Shown in pieces: positions 1-50,076 of a stretch of 64,000 nucleotides of DNA. Each line of letters begins with the position of its first letter. Positions within the stretch are counted from its first letter, which is position 1. The notes beneath the pieces were generated by a model. It saw only the letters and a program-made list of their open reading frames with translations. It searched no databases and was not told where the DNA came from. A program made the translations under genes and the position numbers. The stretch spans positions 1 through 64,000 of the forward strand of contig CALFUK010000031.1 of assembly GCA_937929945.1 (NCBI GenBank), written 5' to 3'. Origin of the DNA: an uncultured Saprospiraceae bacterium. Lineage in GTDB: Bacteria; Bacteroidota; Bacteroidia; Chitinophagales; Saprospiraceae.

Positions 1-775
1 TCGTACCTACGGCACGAATGGTTTCTGCTGATGTTTCGTACGTATGGCATGAATGGTTTTGGATTGAATGTCCTGTACCGATGTTTCGTTTCTACCGACA
101 TATCGTTGCTGCCGATATTTCGCTTCTACCGATATTTCGTACCTACGGCACGAATGGTTTCTACTGATATTTCGTTGCTACCGATATTTCGTTGCTACCG
201 ATATTTCGTACCTACGGCACGAATGGTTTCTACCGATGTTTCGCTGCTACCGAGATTTCGTACCTACGGCACGAATGGTTTCTACCGATGTTTCGCTGCT
301 ACCGAGATATCGTACCTACGGCACGAATGGTTTCTACCGATATTTCGTTTCTACCGAGATATCGTACCTACGGCACGAATGCTTTGGATTGAATCTCTTC
401 TACCGATGTTTTGTTGCTACCGATATTTCGTACCTACGGCACGAATGGTTTCTAGCGATGTTTCGTTGCTACCGAGATATCGTACCTACGGCACGAATGG
501 TTTGGATTGAATGTCTTGTACCGATGTTTCGCTGCTACCGACATATCGTACCTACGGCACGAATGGTTTCTACCGATGTTTCGTTTCTACCGATATTTCG
601 TACCTATGGCACGAATGGTTTCTAGCGATATTTCGTTTCTACCGATATTTCGTACCTATGGCACGAATGGTTTGGATTGAATGTCTTGTGCAGATATTTC
701 GTAGCTACGGCACGAATTGTTTGCTTTGAATATCTTGTACTGATATTTCGTAGCTATGGCATGAATGTTACATGT
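1..775. repeat. Array of ~52-bp intergenic repeat units with a near-palindromic core
   Basis: Fourteen copies of a core close to CGTACCTACGGCACGAATGG begin at 2, 37, 138, 207, 259, 311, 363, 429, 481, 547, 599, 651, 700 and 749. The commonest spacing is 52 bp. Units of 66 bp carry an extra stretch beginning TGGATTGAATGTC, and the spacing from 138 to 207 is longer by one 17-bp TTTCGTTGCTACCGATA module. The core TTCGTACCTACGGCACGAA can fold: arms TTCGT/ACGAA, one A-C mismatch, then CC/GG around a TAC loop. Several reading frames stay open across the array, giving peptides rich in YRTYGTNG or VPTARM, but these follow from the repeat and show no protein-like signal. The array continues past the left edge. 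Function is unknown; a REP/BIME-like element or structured RNA is possible. Confidence 0.9.
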
Positions 776-851: not shown

Positions 852-2069
852 TTAAGTCGTTTTCTCATGGGAAGCTCGATTCCCTTCTTGCTCGTCTAAG
901 TATTCAATGTATGTCGCTAAGTCTTTGTCTCCTCTGCCAGATAGACAGACCACCACAGACTCTTCTGGCTGTGCCCCAATCTGATCCAATATTGAAAAGG
1001 CATGGGCGGTCTCTAAGGCGGGGATGATGCCTTCGACTCTGGTGAGATGATACGCTGCTCGGATAGCTTCCTCATCGGTAGCGCTGAATACTTGGGCTCT
1101 GCCAGAGCTAATCAGATGAGCATGCAGCGGGCCGATACCTGGATAATCCAGACCAGCTGAAATAGAATATGGTTCTACGATCTGGCCATCCTCGGTCTGC
1201 ATCAGCATCGTGCGACTGCCATGGATGATGCCCATGCTTCCCAGCACACTCGTAGCTGCACTGTATCCTGTATCGATCCCCTTGCCAGCAGCTTCGACCA
1301 AGACCAGCTTGACGGATTCATCTTCTAGGTAGTGGTAGAACGCACCTGCCGCATTACTACCTCCGCCTACACAGGCTACGATGTAGTCAGGATTTTCGCT
1401 GCCTGTTTTCTCTTTGAGCTGCCACTTCATCTCCTCGCTGATCACAGATTGAAATGTCGCTACCAGGTCTGGATAGGGGTGTGGGCCTACCACTGACCCA
1501 ATGATGTAGTGGGTGTCGACAGGATGGTTGATCCAGTCACGGATGGCTTCATTAGTCGCATCCTTCAGGGTCTGACTGCCACTCAGTGCTGGCTCTACAT
1601 GAGCTCCGAGCATCTTCATGCGGGCTACATTAGGCGCTTGCCGATGGATGTCAGTCTTACCCATATAGACAATACACTCCAGTCCCATGAGCGCACAGAC
1701 AGTAGCTGTGGCCACACCGTGCTGGCCCGCACCTGTCTCGGCTATGATTCTGGTTTTACCCAGCTCCTTTGCGAGCAAGATTTGACCGATGGTGTTGTTT
1801 ATTTTATGAGCTCCAGTATGATTAAGGTCTTCGCGCTTTAAGTAGATGTTGGTGCCGTATTGCTCTGACAGGCGCTCCGCATGATAGAGAGGCGACGGAC
1901 GACCGACGTAGTCTTTGAGCAGATTGTGAAACTTCTTTTGAAAAGCTGGCTCATTGATGATGCGCTGATAGCTCTCGGTGAGCGTGGCGATATTAGAGTG
2001 CAGCATCTCTGGTATGAATGCGCCTCCATACGGTCCGTAGAAGCCTTCTGAATTAACTTGATATTTCAT
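852..2069 (-). CDS. trpB: Tryptophan synthase beta chain
   Basis: Catalyses condensation of indole with L-serine to give L-tryptophan, PLP-dependent, in the cytoplasm; last step of Trp synthesis. The 405-residue product has the usual length. The PLP lysine lies in HTGAHKINNT (Lys89), and the phosphate-binding glycine loop is GGGSNAAGAF. The N-terminal YGPYGGAFIPEML is typical of TrpB1, the form that partners with TrpA. The ATG start overlaps the trpF 3' end by 17 bp, so the genes are probably translationally coupled. It is the last gene of the trp cluster here. No trpA follows; the repeat array begins about 10 bp beyond the stop. The identification is secure. Confidence 0.97.
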   Translation of the reverse strand: MKYQVNSEGFYGPYGGAFIPEMLHSNIATLTESYQRIINEPAFQKKFHNLLKDYVGRPSPLYHAERLSEQYGTNIYLKREDLNHTGAHKINNTIGQILLAKELGKTRIIAETGAGQHGVATATVCALMGLECIVYMGKTDIHRQAPNVARMKMLGAHVEPALSGSQTLKDATNEAIRDWINHPVDTHYIIGSVVGPHPYPDLVATFQSVISEEMKWQLKEKTGSENPDYIVACVGGGSNAAGAFYHYLEDESVKLVLVEAAGKGIDTGYSAATSVLGSMGIIHGSRTMLMQTEDGQIVEPYSISAGLDYPGIGPLHAHLISSGRAQVFSATDEEAIRAAYHLTRVEGIIPALETAHAFSILDQIGAQPEESVVVCLSGRGDKDLATYIEYLDEQEGNRASHEKTT

Positions 2070-2691
2070 GGTTCGTCTGGTTTAACTGATTGATAAATGT
2101 GGCGATCATGTCATAGCTCTTGATGGCTGGAGCAAGCTCGAATCGGCTGTTGATGTCGATGCCTGCGAATGATGGATGATCGATACTCTTGATGGTTGCG
2201 GCATCATCAGGTCCTATGCCACCGCTTAGAAGAAATGGCTTAGTGCCTTGGTACTGTTGCAGCATGTCCCAGCTGAACTGTCTTCCGCTGCCACCGTAGT
2301 CAGTAGTCTTAGTATCAAATAAAAAATAGTCTACGGATGTTTCGTAGGGCTTTATGTCTGAAAAAGAAAATTCATCATCCACGCGGAAGACCTTGATGAC
2401 CTTGGCAAATTGGCTGGCTGCTCTGCAATAGTCGACAGACTCATCTCCATGCAGCTGTACGTAGTCGAGGCCGTATTGCTGAGTGATATCTTGGAGCGTT
2501 TTTAAACCTTCCTTTACGAATACGCCTACTTTACTGATGTCCTGAGCTATCTGCTGGATGGCCAGTTCATCATAGCGAGGGATATACCTGCTGGAAGGTG
2601 GATAGAAGTTCAGGCCAATCATCTGTATGTCCAGCTGACTGATTTCATTGATATTGACTCGATTTCTTAGGCCACAGACTTTGATGATCAT
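2053..2691 (-). CDS. trpF: Phosphoribosylanthranilate isomerase
   Basis: Converts N-(5-phosphoribosyl)anthranilate to CdRP, the third committed step of tryptophan synthesis. The 212-residue TIM-barrel protein starts MIIKVCGLRN with the catalytic cysteine at residue 6. The FDTKTTDYGGSGRQF segment holds the catalytic aspartate and the phosphate-binding loop region, and PFLLSGGIGPDD is the late glycine-rich phosphate loop. It overlaps trpC by 4 bp at its start (ATGA type) and trpB by 17 bp at its end, which places it firmly inside the operon. It is a separate gene here, not fused to trpC as in E. coli. Confidence 0.95.
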   Translation of the reverse strand: MIIKVCGLRNRVNINEISQLDIQMIGLNFYPPSSRYIPRYDELAIQQIAQDISKVGVFVKEGLKTLQDITQQYGLDYVQLHGDESVDYCRAASQFAKVIKVFRVDDEFSFSDIKPYETSVDYFLFDTKTTDYGGSGRQFSWDMLQQYQGTKPFLLSGGIGPDDAATIKSIDHPSFAGIDINSRFELAPAIKSYDMIATFINQLNQTNHEISS

Positions 2692-3476
2692 GCTTTGCTG
2701 AGAATTGACTGAATGAAATCTTGGCAGGCCCTTCCTGGGTCCATGGTCTTCATGAATCGCTCACCGATGAGAAAGCCATCGAAGCCGACTCTTTGCAACA
2801 TCCTAATCGTGTCAGGATGATGGATGCCACTTTCAGATATTTTGACAGCTTCACTGGGCAGCTGGTCATAGAGCCGCGCGCTATGCTCAGGATCCACTGT
2901 GAATGCCGTAAGATCTCGATTATTGATACCTACGATATCGATATCTGAAGTGTACTTGACCAGCTGGGCCTCCGTATGCACTTCCAATAATGTGTCAAGT
3001 CCCAATGACTTTGCGAGCTTGGCGAAAGACTTGACTTCTGCGGCCGTCAAGATCTCTGTGATCAGCAAGACGGCATCCGCACCAATTGATTTGGCTTCTA
3101 TGATTTGATATTCGTCGATGACAAATTCTTTTCTTAGTAGGGGTGTCTCCACGATTCTTCTGGCATCTTGCAGGTCTTCTGTACTGCCTCCAAAGAAGTG
3201 TGAATCGGTCAATATGGATATCCCACTGACTCCCGCCTGGGTGTAGTGAGTCACGATCTTGCTCACCTCAGCCTCCAGATTGATCTGCGGCTTAGAGGGT
3301 GATCTTCTTTTGAACTCTGAGATGATGCCCAGCTCAGACTCTCTGATACTCTGAGCTAATGAGTGGCATGGCGTATCATAGTGAGCAGATGACTCTAAGG
3401 ATGCTATCGGTATTCGCTGCTTCTGAGCGGCTACCTCTGTTCGTTTGTGTGCGACTATTTTATCTAATATATGCAT
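2688..3476 (-). CDS. trpC: Indole-3-glycerol phosphate synthase
   Basis: Closes the indole ring: CdRP to indole-3-glycerol phosphate, CO2 and water. Family motifs are present: EFKRRSPSKP near the N-terminus, LLRKEFVIDEYQI, VGINNRDLTAF, ISESGIHH and GFLIGERFM. I place the start at the ATG for MHILDKIVAHKR (262 residues), because family members begin this way. An in-frame ATG five codons upstream (3491) overlaps the trpG stop and cannot be excluded. The gene directly follows trpG, where trpD would be expected in a complete Bacteroidota trp operon. Confidence 0.95.
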   Translation of the reverse strand: MHILDKIVAHKRTEVAAQKQRIPIASLESSAHYDTPCHSLAQSIRESELGIISEFKRRSPSKPQINLEAEVSKIVTHYTQAGVSGISILTDSHFFGGSTEDLQDARRIVETPLLRKEFVIDEYQIIEAKSIGADAVLLITEILTAAEVKSFAKLAKSLGLDTLLEVHTEAQLVKYTSDIDIVGINNRDLTAFTVDPEHSARLYDQLPSEAVKISESGIHHPDTIRMLQRVGFDGFLIGERFMKTMDPGRACQDFIQSILSKA

Positions 3477-3484
3477 GGTACCAG

Positions 3485-4063
3485 TTAGCATTTAAATATA
3501 AAATTGGACAGCATGGTTTTACCCATGGGTGTTAATACAGATTCAGGATGAAATTGTATGCCATATACGGGGTAGTCTTTGTGCTTGATGCCCATGATCT
3601 CATCATACTCATCAGTGCAGGTCACCACCAAGTCTTCACTCAGCGTGCTTCGATCAATGACCCAAGAGTGGTAGCGGCCACCCTGAAATTTGGGAGGGAC
3701 GCCAGCAAAAATAGGTGAGGGCACTTCTGTCAAGATCATCGGGGTCTCGATGCCGTGAAAGACTTCATCCAGATTTTTCAGTTGGCTGCCAAAGACTTCA
3801 CCAATGGCCTGCTGTCCCAGGCAGACTCCCAGCATCTTTTTCTTTGCTGCGTATTGCTTAATGATCTCCTTCAATAAGCCCGCTTCTTCAGGTATCCCTG
3901 GACCGGGTGACAGGACGATGGTGTCGTAAGCATCCACGGCCTCAAGGCTGATCTGATCATTCCTGTATATATCTATCGGGGCATCCGTCAGCTCTTTGAT
4001 GAGATGCACTAGGTTATAAGTGAAGGAGTCGTAATTATCGATTACTAATATCTTTTGCATCAT
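3485..4063 (-). CDS. trpG: Anthranilate synthase glutamine amidotransferase subunit
   Basis: Supplies ammonia from glutamine to TrpE for anthranilate synthesis. The class I amidotransferase triad is visible: Cys81 in GVCLGQQAIG, and His172 and Glu174 in QFHPESVLTP. The oxyanion-side motif SPGPGIPEEAG is also present. At 192 residues it is a free-standing subunit with no TrpD domain fused at the C-terminus. The start overlaps the trpE stop by 4 bp (ATGA). A second Met directly follows the first, so either may be used. In some bacteria this subunit also serves p-aminobenzoate synthesis; the location supports the Trp role. Confidence 0.95.
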   Translation of the reverse strand: MMQKILVIDNYDSFTYNLVHLIKELTDAPIDIYRNDQISLEAVDAYDTIVLSPGPGIPEEAGLLKEIIKQYAAKKKMLGVCLGQQAIGEVFGSQLKNLDEVFHGIETPMILTEVPSPIFAGVPPKFQGGRYHSWVIDRSTLSEDLVVTCTDEYDEIMGIKHKDYPVYGIQFHPESVLTPMGKTMLSNFIFKC

Positions 4064-5454
4064 TCTGATACTGGTTTTGGTGAGTAAAGTTCTTCTGCTT
4101 TGAGCAGGGCTTTTTTCAGCGCAGCTAATTTATTATTGACTTCTTCCATCTCTGATCTTTCGTCTGACTTGATCACTAGACCTGCTCCTGCTTGGTAGTG
4201 TAGTGTCTGATCTATGCTCAGAAATGATCTAATGATAATAGCGTGATTTAAATCTCCATTGAAATTAATCACCCCGATACCTCCTCCGTAGAAACTTCGG
4301 GAGTGTGGCTCGTATTCGCTGATGAGTTCCATCGCCTTATATTTAGGCGCGCCTGAAAGTGTCCCAGCGGGAAATGTATCGGCGTAGACCTGAAAGTTAG
4401 TGGCTCCGTCTGTGAGCTGACCTTTCACCACTGAGGTCAGGTGGATCACATGGCTGAAGTATTGTGCTTCTTTGAATGACTCGACGTGTACTTGCTTCGT
4501 ATTGATACTCAAATCATTTCTGGCCAGATCCACCAGCATGACGTGTTCTGCGACTTCTTTTGGATCTTCTTCCAGCTGTTTGGCGATGATCTGATCTTGC
4601 TTCATGTCTCCAGTGCGCCGGTAGGTACCAGCTATGGGATGTATTTCTGCTGTACCAGCCGTCACTTTGATCTGTGCCTCTGGTGATGATCCGAATATTT
4701 TATAAGTACCATAGTCATAATAGTATAAATAGGGACTCGGGTTAATGGCCCGTAGTGCTCGATACACATTGAATTCATCGCCTTCGAATGCTTGCTTATA
4801 ACGTCTCGCCAGCACCAGCTGAAAGACATCGCCTCGCTTGCAGTGGGCCTTGGCCTGGGTGACCATCTGCATGTAGTCTTCATTAGTGAGCTGCGAGGTC
4901 TCTTCGCCTACGGTACTGAAGTGTGAGGTCTCATAGACTCTATCTTCTGCAAGGGCCTGGGCCGTACTCATCTGTGATGCTTCACCTTCAGGCCTATTCT
5001 CTATCAGGTGCAGCTCATGATGATAGTGATCAAAGACGTAGATGAATCTAAAAAAGTCGTATCTCAGATGGGGCGTCAGGTGTTGATCCTTAGCTGGGTC
5101 AAAGCTGATGTCTTCAAAGTATTGCACGGCATCGAATGTGGAATATCCAAAAATGCCATTGTATTGCTCACTGTATGCATCACCATCGATTTGCTTAGAA
5201 TCCATGAATGACTTGATCTCTTCTACAATATTGAATGATTCTTTTCGAAGATCGCCGCACTCTAAGATGCCTCGATTTACTTCCAGTGTGCTGATGGAGT
5301 CAAAGCAAATGAATGACAAGTGGTCTTGGCGAGATCCATAGGCAGAGCTCTCCATGAGCAGTGTCTCTTCATACTTTTCTCTGATTTTCAGGAATAGTCC
5401 TACAGGTGTGATCAGGTCTGCCTCAAGCCTCGCTGCTGTCGTGTGTATTTTCAT
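4060..5454 (-). CDS. trpE: Anthranilate synthase component I
   Basis: Makes anthranilate from chorismate with ammonia from TrpG; first committed step of the pathway. The 464-residue product has the chorismate-binding core motifs HPIAGTYRRTGD, LVDLARNDLS and GTLSGAPKYKAMELI. An N-terminal LLMESS (residues 32-37) matches the LLES-type element that in TrpE proteins binds feedback-inhibiting tryptophan, and argues for TrpE rather than PabB. It is the first structural gene of the operon. A leader peptide and intrinsic terminator lie 50-170 bp upstream, so the gene is probably controlled by transcription attenuation. Confidence 0.96.
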   Translation of the reverse strand: MKIHTTAARLEADLITPVGLFLKIREKYEETLLMESSAYGSRQDHLSFICFDSISTLEVNRGILECGDLRKESFNIVEEIKSFMDSKQIDGDAYSEQYNGIFGYSTFDAVQYFEDISFDPAKDQHLTPHLRYDFFRFIYVFDHYHHELHLIENRPEGEASQMSTAQALAEDRVYETSHFSTVGEETSQLTNEDYMQMVTQAKAHCKRGDVFQLVLARRYKQAFEGDEFNVYRALRAINPSPYLYYYDYGTYKIFGSSPEAQIKVTAGTAEIHPIAGTYRRTGDMKQDQIIAKQLEEDPKEVAEHVMLVDLARNDLSINTKQVHVESFKEAQYFSHVIHLTSVVKGQLTDGATNFQVYADTFPAGTLSGAPKYKAMELISEYEPHSRSFYGGGIGVINFNGDLNHAIIIRSFLSIDQTLHYQAGAGLVIKSDERSEMEEVNNKLAALKKALLKAEELYSPKPVSE

Positions 5455-5501: not shown

Positions 5502-5532
5502 AAAAAAAGGCTCGCCGGGAATGGCAAGCCTT
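5502..5532 (-). terminator. Intrinsic terminator of the trp attenuator
   Basis: On the minus strand AAGGCTTGCC pairs with GGCGAGCCTT (ten pairs, one G-U) around a six-base loop, followed by seven T. It stands between the Trp-codon leader peptide and trpE, where an attenuator terminator belongs, about 48 bp before the trpE ATG. Confidence 0.9.
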
Positions 5533-5557
5533 ATATCTTAGTCGTATCTAATTGGCG

Positions 5558-5620
5558 CTACATCCCTGTATGAACATTCAGAGAGCTCCACCACCAATTG
5601 TTTACGTTAATATCTTTCAT
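5558..5620 (-). CDS. trpL: trp operon leader peptide with three consecutive Trp codons
   Basis: A 20-codon reading frame, MKDINVNNWWWSSLNVHTGM, ends in TAG 26 bp before the terminator stem. The tandem TGG TGG TGG codons at 5588-5596 would stall ribosomes when charged tRNA-Trp is scarce. The AATTGG that overlaps the first Trp codon (5594-5599) can pair with CCAATT at 5550-5555 downstream of the stop, which gives ribosome position a way to change the RNA fold. The order leader, terminator, trpE is that of classical ribosome-mediated attenuation. Function is inferred from this layout. No Shine-Dalgarno sequence is visible. Confidence 0.88.
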   Translation of the reverse strand: MKDINVNNWWWSSLNVHTGM

Positions 5621-5626
5621 ATCGTG

Positions 5627-5659
5627 CAAATCTAAGTGAATTACGAAGGATAATCCTAA
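5627..5659 (-). promoter_or_regulatory. Predicted promoter of the trp operon
   Basis: The minus strand has TAGATTTG (5634 to 5627), an exact match to the Bacteroidota -7 consensus TAnnTTTG. A weak -33 candidate, TTAG (5659 to 5656), lies 21 bp upstream. The -7 box ends only six bases before the leader ATG, so the transcript may begin at or very near the start codon. Confidence 0.5.
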
Positions 5660-5676
5660 TGATTCGTTTACTATTT

Positions 5677-8600
5677 TCAATTTCCCTTCTTCTTTTTACC
5701 AAATTTAAATGGGTTCTTGATTTTGTTGAGAATGCTATCAACACTGATCTCCGTATTCTTGCCGATGACATCTTCTACCGTTTTTGAGATAGCAGTCACT
5801 GTGGAATCAGGCAGCTGACCCTTTAGCAGTGTATCTATCTGATTCTTAGCGATCTCAGTCACCTGGTCTTTTTTCTCCTTGATGGCCTCATTGACCACGG
5901 TGGCTACAGTGTCTTTGATCTCTTGCGTCTTCGTAGCTATGGTGTCTTTTACGGTATTAACCGTATTATCCACTTTGGTACGGATGCTGTCTTTGACCTC
6001 TGTCTTCTTCTCCTCTATTTTATTTCTGACTTGATTCTTCACCTGTTCAGTCAGGGGCTTATCAGAGATTCGCACATTCTTGATCTCGATGTCTGGCTTC
6101 AGTATAGATCCTGTCAGATGGAGGTCTGCATCGACGTAGTCATTCTGCTCTATGTTTAGTCCTCGATTATTGACAGTATTGATGATGCCGTCCAGCTCTT
6201 TGGCTAGCTCCTGACCCAGCGGATTAGATTCCAGGTATTTTCGAGGTATCGAAGTCCGAATCACGTAGTCCATATCCATATTGAAGCCGTGACTACCTGA
6301 TATCTTCATCATCACTTCCTTCACCCCATAGTCGAATTCTTTTACTTGCAATGCACCATCTTTTATCTCAAACCACTTTTTACCATTATCGAGTACCCAG
6401 TCTTTTCCTTCATCTACCTTTAGATACGATTTCAGTTTCTCTACAGGTCCAAAGCCCGATATTTTACCCTCTACCGTCTCGAAGAAGCCACTGCCTGTCA
6501 AGGTCTGAAAGTCTGGCAGCAGCGTAGGGTCCAATAGACCCTCTAAGACAAAGGTAGAATTGAATATTCCTTCGATGTATGAAGCGATCGGAGCTAAAAT
6601 CTTAAAGGTCTCATTGGACTTGACCGCTTCTGCTATCTTCATATTAGCCATGTTATAGCGCAGACCGAAGGCTGGCTTAGTCACATCCGCACTGGAGTAG
6701 TAGCCCTCTAAGTCGATATCTCCACCAAAAGTGCTTCCTTTGAAGGATTGGATATTGACAGTCGATGGAATGACAGCCAAGCGGCCAGTTGCATTCTTGA
6801 TATTATAGCTCTCATAGATGATTTCATCAGCCTTGATGTTGATGTCGATCTCCACATTATCAGGTATGAGGGGTATAGCCTCAGCTTCAGTTTCTATTGG
6901 CTCTTCAGAGAAGTCAGCGTAGTCTATTTTCTTCGCTACTAGATCGAGCTGCCCCGTCAGAGATTCATTTTGATACAGGTATTGGTATAGTTGATCCAGC
7001 TTGCCAGAAAAGCTGATATCACTCGATCCTATGTCTCCTGATCCATTTTGAATCACGATGGCATTAGAACTGAGAGCAGCGTCTATTTTAAAATCATCCA
7101 GTTCATATAGATCATATATCAATCGGTCAGCTGTATAGTTAGCCCTCACGTCTATATAGTCGAATGATGTGAGCAGGGCTACTGGCGCGGCGCTGGTATC
7201 CACTTCTTCTTCGATGTAGTCGTTCAGATTCATAACCTGTGATTTTAACTGTAGCTCACCTTTCAGCGGCTGGTCATTCAGAAAGAAATTTAACAGATTG
7301 GTGAGTTCGCCCGTACCAGCAATATCATTATCTCCAGACTTGGCTTGCAGTGCGCTGATTTTTAGAGCGTCGTTTTTATAGTCTCCTTTAAAATTGGAGA
7401 CTTCCATTTTTGTATCTGCCGATGCATAGATCAGACCTGTCAACTCTACGATCCCTTCCGACGTGAGCTGTGCAAAATTTTGTTTTTCCAAGTCAGCGGT
7501 GAGCCCCTTCGATTTGATATCAGCTTTGATCTGACCAGACAGTGCCTCCAAGCCGTCTATGGGGTAGGCCTTAGCTATTTTGGAAATGTCCATGTCAGTG
7601 TCCAGAGCAAATTCAAAATTTCGCTGGCCACGATTCTGTGATACCAAAGAAGCATTAAAGGCCTCACCGTCAATGGTAAACTGCAATGGCTGCAGAGCCA
7701 CATTGGTTTTGTCCACATCACCTGAGGCATTGTCCGCTGTAAGTGAAAGGTTAATGTTATCAATGGGTAGTGCCAGGTCAGGATATTTCACTGTCGCGTC
7801 CGAGAGCTTGAACAACACATCAAAAGCCGGTATCTGACTGTCATTATAGGTACCCTTGGCACTTACCTTGTAGTCGAATCCACCTGTGGCGGTGACGTTA
7901 TTAAAGTCCTGTGTGTATGCGTATGGAATCAGGGACAAGAACTCCTTCACTGAGTTGTCCTTAGCGCTGGAGCTGAAGTCGATGATCAGATCATCTCCTG
8001 CCATTTGGACTGATCCATCCGCCAGCATTTTAAATTCGTTTATTTTTATTAGACCATCGCTGATGCTGTACTTAGATTGATTTAGGTCCACCGAAATGGG
8101 CAGCTCCGAGCTTATTTTTAAGTCATTAGCGAGTTTAGCCTTGTTATTGATCACGTTGATTCCGCTCAGATCGGTCTGTGTATCCAGAGTGAATACTTCA
8201 TCGATGAAGTCACCTTTACCTGAATGATTCACTGCTTGGATGGACGCTTGAAAAGCACTTTGTGCATCGGTATAGCTGACACGGCCATCTGAGATTTCGT
8301 AGTAGTCTATCTTCATATCGACACTCTCAGTAGAGCTGGCAGTATCGGATGGCTTCATGATATCCCAGTTAGTCGCTCCATCTTGGTTGATGTACAAATC
8401 TATGATCGGCCGATCGAGTAAGATTTTCGTAATCTCGATGGCATCACTCTTGAATAATGATGCAAGACCCACTTGTACAGTTATTTCTTCAGCTTGTAGT
8501 AGTGTCTTATCTTCAAATGGCGCGTGGCCTTTGATGCTTAGCTCATCAAGGGTTACACTTGGAAAAGGGAAGGTTTTAAAAAACGACAGGCTCACATCTT

Positions 8601-8748
8601 CAAAATCGAGTTCTGCGTTGATTGTTTTATTTACCTCTGTCTTGATCGCCGCGACTATTTTGTCTTGGAATATGAATGGTGCTATTATCATGGCAATGAT
8701 TAACCCCAAGATCAGTATTCCTCCTATTTTTAATATTTTCTTCATCAT
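5677..8748 (-). CDS. AsmA-family envelope protein
   Basis: A 1023-residue protein with one N-terminal membrane segment (about residues 5-27). A long beta-rich region of the AsmA type follows, opening with the family-like pattern of an amphipathic helix and then LDFEDVSLSFFKTFPFPSVT. AsmA-like proteins sit in the inner membrane, span the periplasm, and in Gram-negatives are tied to outer-membrane lipid homeostasis. The C-terminal ~150 residues change character to Lys/Thr/Val-rich helical repeats (TVKDTIATKTQEIKDTV and relatives), probably a coiled or amphipathic helix, ending in a basic KFGKKKKGN tail. It lies upstream of the trp leader on the same strand but with its own gap of about 55 bp. 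The exact substrate is unknown. Confidence 0.85.
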   Translation of the reverse strand: MMKKILKIGGILILGLIIAMIIAPFIFQDKIVAAIKTEVNKTINAELDFEDVSLSFFKTFPFPSVTLDELSIKGHAPFEDKTLLQAEEITVQVGLASLFKSDAIEITKILLDRPIIDLYINQDGATNWDIMKPSDTASSTESVDMKIDYYEISDGRVSYTDAQSAFQASIQAVNHSGKGDFIDEVFTLDTQTDLSGINVINNKAKLANDLKISSELPISVDLNQSKYSISDGLIKINEFKMLADGSVQMAGDDLIIDFSSSAKDNSVKEFLSLIPYAYTQDFNNVTATGGFDYKVSAKGTYNDSQIPAFDVLFKLSDATVKYPDLALPIDNINLSLTADNASGDVDKTNVALQPLQFTIDGEAFNASLVSQNRGQRNFEFALDTDMDISKIAKAYPIDGLEALSGQIKADIKSKGLTADLEKQNFAQLTSEGIVELTGLIYASADTKMEVSNFKGDYKNDALKISALQAKSGDNDIAGTGELTNLLNFFLNDQPLKGELQLKSQVMNLNDYIEEEVDTSAAPVALLTSFDYIDVRANYTADRLIYDLYELDDFKIDAALSSNAIVIQNGSGDIGSSDISFSGKLDQLYQYLYQNESLTGQLDLVAKKIDYADFSEEPIETEAEAIPLIPDNVEIDINIKADEIIYESYNIKNATGRLAVIPSTVNIQSFKGSTFGGDIDLEGYYSSADVTKPAFGLRYNMANMKIAEAVKSNETFKILAPIASYIEGIFNSTFVLEGLLDPTLLPDFQTLTGSGFFETVEGKISGFGPVEKLKSYLKVDEGKDWVLDNGKKWFEIKDGALQVKEFDYGVKEVMMKISGSHGFNMDMDYVIRTSIPRKYLESNPLGQELAKELDGIINTVNNRGLNIEQNDYVDADLHLTGSILKPDIEIKNVRISDKPLTEQVKNQVRNKIEEKKTEVKDSIRTKVDNTVNTVKDTIATKTQEIKDTVATVVNEAIKEKKDQVTEIAKNQIDTLLKGQLPDSTVTAISKTVEDVIGKNTEISVDSILNKIKNPFKFGKKKKGN

Positions 8749-49960: not shown

Positions 49961-50017
49961 ATGATTAAGACGTACACAAATACAATCCATCATCATGACT
50001 TGCTGAGAAGCGAGTGA
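49961..50017 (+). CDS. hisL: his operon leader peptide with three consecutive His codons
   Basis: An 18-codon frame, MIKTYTNTIHHHDLLRSE, ends in TGA 28 bp before the terminator stem. The CAT CAT CAT run at 49988-49996 would stall ribosomes under histidine starvation. AATACAATC (49979-49987), just before the His codons, is perfectly complementary to GATTGTATT (50019-50027) just after the stop, so ribosome position can open or close this pairing. AGCGAGT (50009-50015) could also compete for the left arm of the terminator with one mismatch. The role in attenuation is inferred from this classical layout. No Shine-Dalgarno sequence is visible. Confidence 0.9.
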   Translation: MIKTYTNTIHHHDLLRSE

Positions 50018-50045
50018 AGATTGTATTGATAATAGATATAATATG

Positions 50046-50076
50046 ACCCGCTCTCTTTTAGATAGCGGGTTTTTTT
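50046..50076 (+). terminator. Intrinsic terminator of the his attenuator
   Basis: ACCCGCT (50046-50052) pairs with AGCGGGT (50064-50070) around an 11-base loop and is followed by a run of T to 50076. It lies between the His-codon leader peptide and hisG, 28 bp before the hisG ATG. Confidence 0.9.

Follow-up and report, generated by a model that had tools for sequence, protein, structure and literature searches.

A putative tryptophan attenuator upstream of trpEGCFB in Saprospiraceae is a divergent Bacteroid-trp leader whose end probably pairs with the apex of its own terminator

Immediately upstream of trpE in an uncultured Saprospiraceae bacterium lies a 20-codon reading frame with three consecutive tryptophan codons, followed by a hairpin and a run of T; this layout raises the question of whether the trp operon is controlled by ribosome-mediated transcription attenuation and, if so, which pairing would keep the terminator from forming. 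We addressed this question in the window (the whole stretch of DNA analyzed, 64,000 nucleotides) and by comparing the corresponding regions of relatives. The leader and the operon in the window comprise the following features.

5558 to 5620, minus strand: leader peptide ORF, MKDINVNNWWWSSLNVHTGM plus stop; ATG at 5620, stop TAG at 5560-5558, 20 codons
5507 to 5532, minus strand: intrinsic terminator hairpin AAGGCTTGCC-ATTCCC-GGCGAGCCTT; 10 pairs, loop ATTCCC
5502 to 5508, minus strand: T7 tract, expected 3' end of the attenuated transcript
4060 to 5454, minus strand: trpE, anthranilate synthase component I, first gene of the operon; ATG at 5454
3485 to 4063, minus strand: trpG
2688 to 3491, minus strand: trpC
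2053 to 2691, minus strand: trpF
852 to 2069, minus strand: trpB

The initial annotation had described a 20-codon frame with TGG TGG TGG, a 10-pair stem plus T7, and trpE downstream. The frame is exact (ATG 5620 to TAG 5558, minus strand, with the three TGG codons at 5596-5588), and trpE does begin beyond the leader and terminator, at 5454, 103 bases from the leader stop, followed by trpG, trpC, trpF, and trpB. The description of the terminator needed adjusting: both the 10-pair stem and the run of seven T are present, but they cannot be counted separately, because two T of the run belong to the stem, leaving either 10 bp plus T5 or 8 bp plus T7. The folded leader strand was more stable than shuffled sequences (z -2.4; 3 of 200 shuffles were as good). 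The 64-kb window has 951 short ORFs that begin with ATG (8-40 aa, both strands); a single one contains WWW, and it is the trp leader, directly 5' of the terminator and trpE. As the initial annotation remarked, gene finders may plausibly overlook so short a leader gene.

Two genes of the pathway are not where the operon would lead one to look. The ends of trpG and trpC overlap directly (3485-3491) and trpD lies on another contig; therefore, the attenuator would not control trpD in cis. trpA is missing from the assembly; the only match in this organism's own genome (27.5 bits) was an open frame unlike trpA and was rejected. Because trpA sits close downstream in the same cluster of a same-genus genome, its absence likely reflects a gap in the assembly where the contig ends. 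Downstream of trpB, the contig start carries tandem repeats of 52, 118, and 170 bases (window 113-767), and the contig probably breaks inside such a tandem repeat.

The initial annotation had proposed looking for the tandem Trp codons and the terminator in relatives, and both proved to be widely kept. Our family sample consisted of 80 upstream regions, each genome contributing one and almost every region representing a different genus; after leaving out three pabB-like loci and one locus cut by a contig end, 76 were usable. A WW or WWW leader with a terminator was present at 73 of these 76 Saprospiraceae trpE loci, the window included, and was not found in the three pabB-like control loci. The three exceptions differed among themselves: one (L048) has a WRW-type leader, another (L063) has the same kind of terminator farther upstream, and in the third (L068) no terminator was seen either. 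Across Bacteroidota, a Trp-rich leader with a terminator was found at 70 of 78 usable named loci, among them Flavobacteriaceae, Cyclobacteriaceae, Mucilaginibacter, Chitinophaga, and several Bacteroidales; loci lacking the combination include some Bacteroidales, a Pedobacter, and a Microscillaceae. The order of leader, terminator, and trpE, together with this conservation, supports the original reading of the layout as ribosome-mediated transcription attenuation. Two family loci carry more than one leader: L049 has three Trp-rich leaders in series before trpE, each with its own terminator, and L074 has two WWW leaders with terminators.

Conservation of the leader alone could also reflect an active leader whose control is translational or exerted through another sensor (a T-box, a TRAP-like protein, or ribosome reinitiation into trpE) rather than through termination. 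Reinitiation by leader genes close to structural genes has been proposed, also in Bacteroidetes, where the distance peaks at 11-14 bases (PMC4833913); the 103 bases that separate the leader stop from trpE are far beyond this peak. In the window, no T-box or other riboregulator was found at Rfam thresholds, and a terminator with a U-rich tail stands between the leader and trpE in every leader-bearing family locus (73 of 73). We consider control by a route other than termination highly improbable.

If termination is the point of control, an antiterminator should compete with the terminator. When the leaders of relatives were placed side by side, the end of the leader ORF was complementary to the terminator apex (the loop and the tops of the arms), and the two changed together, giving pairs such as CGGGTGA/TCACCCG, CGAGTGA/TCACTCG, TCGGAA/TTCCGA, and GAGAAGC/GCTTCTC. 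In the window, the segments involved are the following.

5550 to 5599, minus strand: protector hairpin (1:2), which includes the Trp codons; 5599-5592 pairs with 5557-5550 and 5584-5579 with 5568-5563; the same hairpin is in RF01692
5554 to 5566, minus strand: region 2, antiterminator strand; GGGA 5566-5563, GTAG 5561-5558, GCC 5556-5554
5517 to 5530, minus strand: region 3, antiterminator partner; GGC 5530-5528, TTGC 5527-5524, loop TCCC 5520-5517

We quantified this relationship with a swap test, comparing the duplex energy of each leader end with the apex of its own terminator and with apexes swapped between genera, with no alignment chosen; the lower terminator arms served as a control for shared base composition. 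Within Saprospiraceae, own partners gave -11.1 kcal/mol versus -7.9 kcal/mol for swapped partners (z -10.8; 0 of 5000 permutations). For the other Bacteroidota, the values were -8.6 versus -5.8 kcal/mol (z -9.6; 0 of 5000 permutations), and z was -7.3 with one sequence per taxon label. The window species has one of the weaker antiterminators (-8.4 kcal/mol; longest exact match, 5 bases). Along the terminator, the excess of pairing fell on the loop and the arm tops, whereas the E. coli core lies in the lower 5' arm. The control segments, low on both arms, gave a faint excess at most. Pairing of the classical 2:3 type, with the lower 5' arm as the target, showed little or no coevolution (z -1.7 in Saprospiraceae, +0.8 elsewhere); a fixed contribution of this arm to the pairing is possible, since the segment is nearly invariant. 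A pseudoknot confined to the loop was not adopted, since pairing in the state model extends into the 5' arm. Thus, what we add to the known class of Bacteroidota Trp leaders is probably its antiterminator, formed by the leader end pairing with the apex of its own terminator.

The lower terminator stem behaves differently from the apex. Its sequence, GCGGCTTGTCG / AAGGCTTG (window 5532-5523 and relatives), hardly changes within Saprospiraceae and has a similar form in Flavobacteriaceae. A terminator does not require a fixed stem sequence. No coevolving partner of this lower stem was found when the leader region was compared with relatives.

An upstream AsmA-like gene (5677-8748) on the same strand ends at 5677, about 145 bases before the hairpin, so the hairpin could simply be the terminator of that gene and the WWW ORF a chance frame. 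We regard this as very doubtful: in many genera, trpE is accompanied by both the WWW leader and the terminator, and coevolution links the leader end to the apex of that terminator. The terminator may nevertheless stop readthrough from the AsmA-like gene as a side effect.

Taken together, the window very likely holds a ribosome-mediated transcription attenuator of trpEGCFB, a divergent member of the Bacteroid-trp class, and we infer that it works in vivo and is sensitive to tryptophan. When charged tRNA-Trp is sufficient, the ribosome would pass the three Trp codons, reach the stop at 5560-5558, and cover region 2 (5566-5554); the terminator (5532-5507) would then form and transcription would end near 5502. 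With tryptophan scarce, the ribosome would stall on 5596-5588 and occupy the 5' side of the protector hairpin, leaving region 2 free to capture the emerging 5' arm and loop of the terminator (GCC:GGC, GTAG:TTGC, GGGA:TCCC), so that the terminator would not form in time and trpE would be transcribed. Without translation, the protector hairpin would hold region 2 and the operon would be off.

Computed folds of the ribosome states were in line with this scheme, assuming a ribosome footprint of 18 nt upstream and 12 nt downstream of the A-site codon. With no ribosome, the window sequence folded into the protector hairpin plus the terminator. When a ribosome was placed on the second Trp codon and polymerase had just cleared the apex, GGGA:TCCC, GTAG:TTGC, and GCC:GGC paired; placing the first Trp codon in the A-site gave an expected count of only some 5 region 2:3 pairs. 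Across the 73 Saprospiraceae, the expected number of 2:3 pairs was 13.3-14.4 with the ribosome stalled on Trp codons, 5.4 (median 0.6) with no ribosome, and 3.2 with the ribosome at the stop; the corresponding values for 58 other Bacteroidota were 11.1-11.4, 3.8, and 2.1. Exchanging terminators between genomes lowered the stalled value from 13.9 to 9.4, which indicates that part of this pairing is generic and part is specific. At equilibrium, the complete terminator was favored in every ribosome state of the window sequence (P 0.96-0.98); hence, antitermination must be kinetic, chosen during transcription, as is assumed for classical attenuators.

The coevolution also bears on the leader peptide. 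Outside the Trp run, the peptide varies widely among relatives, and in many it ends in RVR or RVK. Because the last codons pair with the RNA of the terminator apex, their conservation is, on our comparison of the sequences, explained by RNA pairing and not by a function of the peptide. The trp leader of Sinorhizobium meliloti reportedly acts in trans, and the attenuated transcript expected here, a short RNA roughly 120 nt long and ending in a hairpin, is of a kind that might do the same. The sequence gives no hint of trans targets, the RVR/RVK end is accounted for by RNA pairing, and the rest of the peptide is variable apart from its Trp run; we therefore think a trans role of the released leader RNA or peptide, besides attenuation in cis, very unlikely.

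Six bases before the leader ATG, the window has a match to the -7 promoter element of Bacteroidota, whose consensus is TAnnTTTG.

5627 to 5634, minus strand: TAGATTTG, match to TAnnTTTG

Since this match ends so close to the ATG, its position would imply an mRNA with a very short 5' UTR, leaderless or nearly so, in the window species. TAnnTTTG precedes 35 of the 73 family trp leaders (4.6% of shuffles). It ends 4-8 bases before the ATG in 11 of these 35, the window included, and mostly 17-27 bases before it in the rest. With the 4-8 base spacing in only 11 of the motif-bearing leaders, we rejected a leaderless start as a feature of the class.

The window holds a second leader of a similar plan, on the opposite strand and before the his operon.

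49961 to 50017, plus strand: his leader MIKTYTNTIHHHDLLRSE (HHH)
50045 to 50071, plus strand: terminator of the his leader
from 50105, plus strand: hisG; his operon to 57221

A leader with a run of His codons and a terminator was found at 26 of 29 usable hisG loci in Saprospiraceae, the window included, and the swap test between his region 2 and the apex was positive (z -5.0 to -6.3; 0 of 5000 permutations). Our literature search found no his attenuators or antiterminators in Bacteroidetes, and an earlier description is possible. These comparisons point to ribosome-mediated attenuation as the control of trp throughout Saprospiraceae, a family in which the Rfam cut-off detects no member, and very probably of his there as well. 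More broadly, we lean toward a common Bacteroidota attenuator design, at least for trp and his, in which the antiterminator captures the loop and arm tops of the terminator; it would be phylum-wide, largely outside the Rfam model, and repeated two or three times in series before trpE in some genomes. A class catalogued mainly as a hairpin thereby gains a testable antiterminator, and building region 2 and the terminator apex into a covariance model should bring in many members that now escape detection.

The initial annotation had recognized a layout known from Proteobacteria in a Bacteroidota-type genome. Such a device is no surprise in Bacteroidota: comparable Trp leaders from Bacteroidetes were reported as Bacteroid-trp (RF01692) (Weinberg et al. 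2010, PMC2864571), and the class has been noted in Flavobacterium psychrophilum (PMC6414381). The window attenuator is a divergent member of this known class, and attenuation is not new for Bacteroidota. RF01692 aligned with the window over its full length (1-131 of 131) at 5640-5523, with a score of 32.9 bits (E 0.034, 4227 families), below the gathering cut-off of 49 bits. Neither the window scan nor the genome-wide scan reported it at cut-off. Among 296 Bacteroidota genomes, 29 had RF01692 matches, with none in Saprospiraceae among the matches listed, and 0 leaders in a sample of 20 Saprospiraceae loci passed the cut-off. In content, the window leader resembles RF01692 in phylum, gene context upstream of trp genes, tandem UGG codons, and a hairpin in which these codons pair with bases near and beyond the leader stop. 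It differs in that the RF01692 model carries only the protector hairpin, and the antiterminator proposed for the window is absent from the model.

Proteobacterial his and other amino acid leaders share their plan with the window's HHH leader before hisG, but neither the window nor two scanned hisG relatives gave an Rfam match for that leader at the gathering threshold. The Proteobacterial Trp_leader model (RF00513) scored 20.5 bits in the window, below its cut-off of 41. In function, the window has the parts of a trp attenuator: a leader ORF with tandem Trp codons, an intrinsic terminator between it and the first gene, and, computationally, an antiterminator that is mutually exclusive with the terminator and freed by stalling on the Trp codons. 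Like E. coli trpL, it thus combines a Trp-rich leader, a protector hairpin, and a competing antiterminator with a terminator. The two differ in where the antiterminator takes hold: the core of E. coli region 2 binds low on the 5' arm of its terminator, whereas the coevolving contacts in Bacteroidota lie in the terminator loop and at the arm tops.
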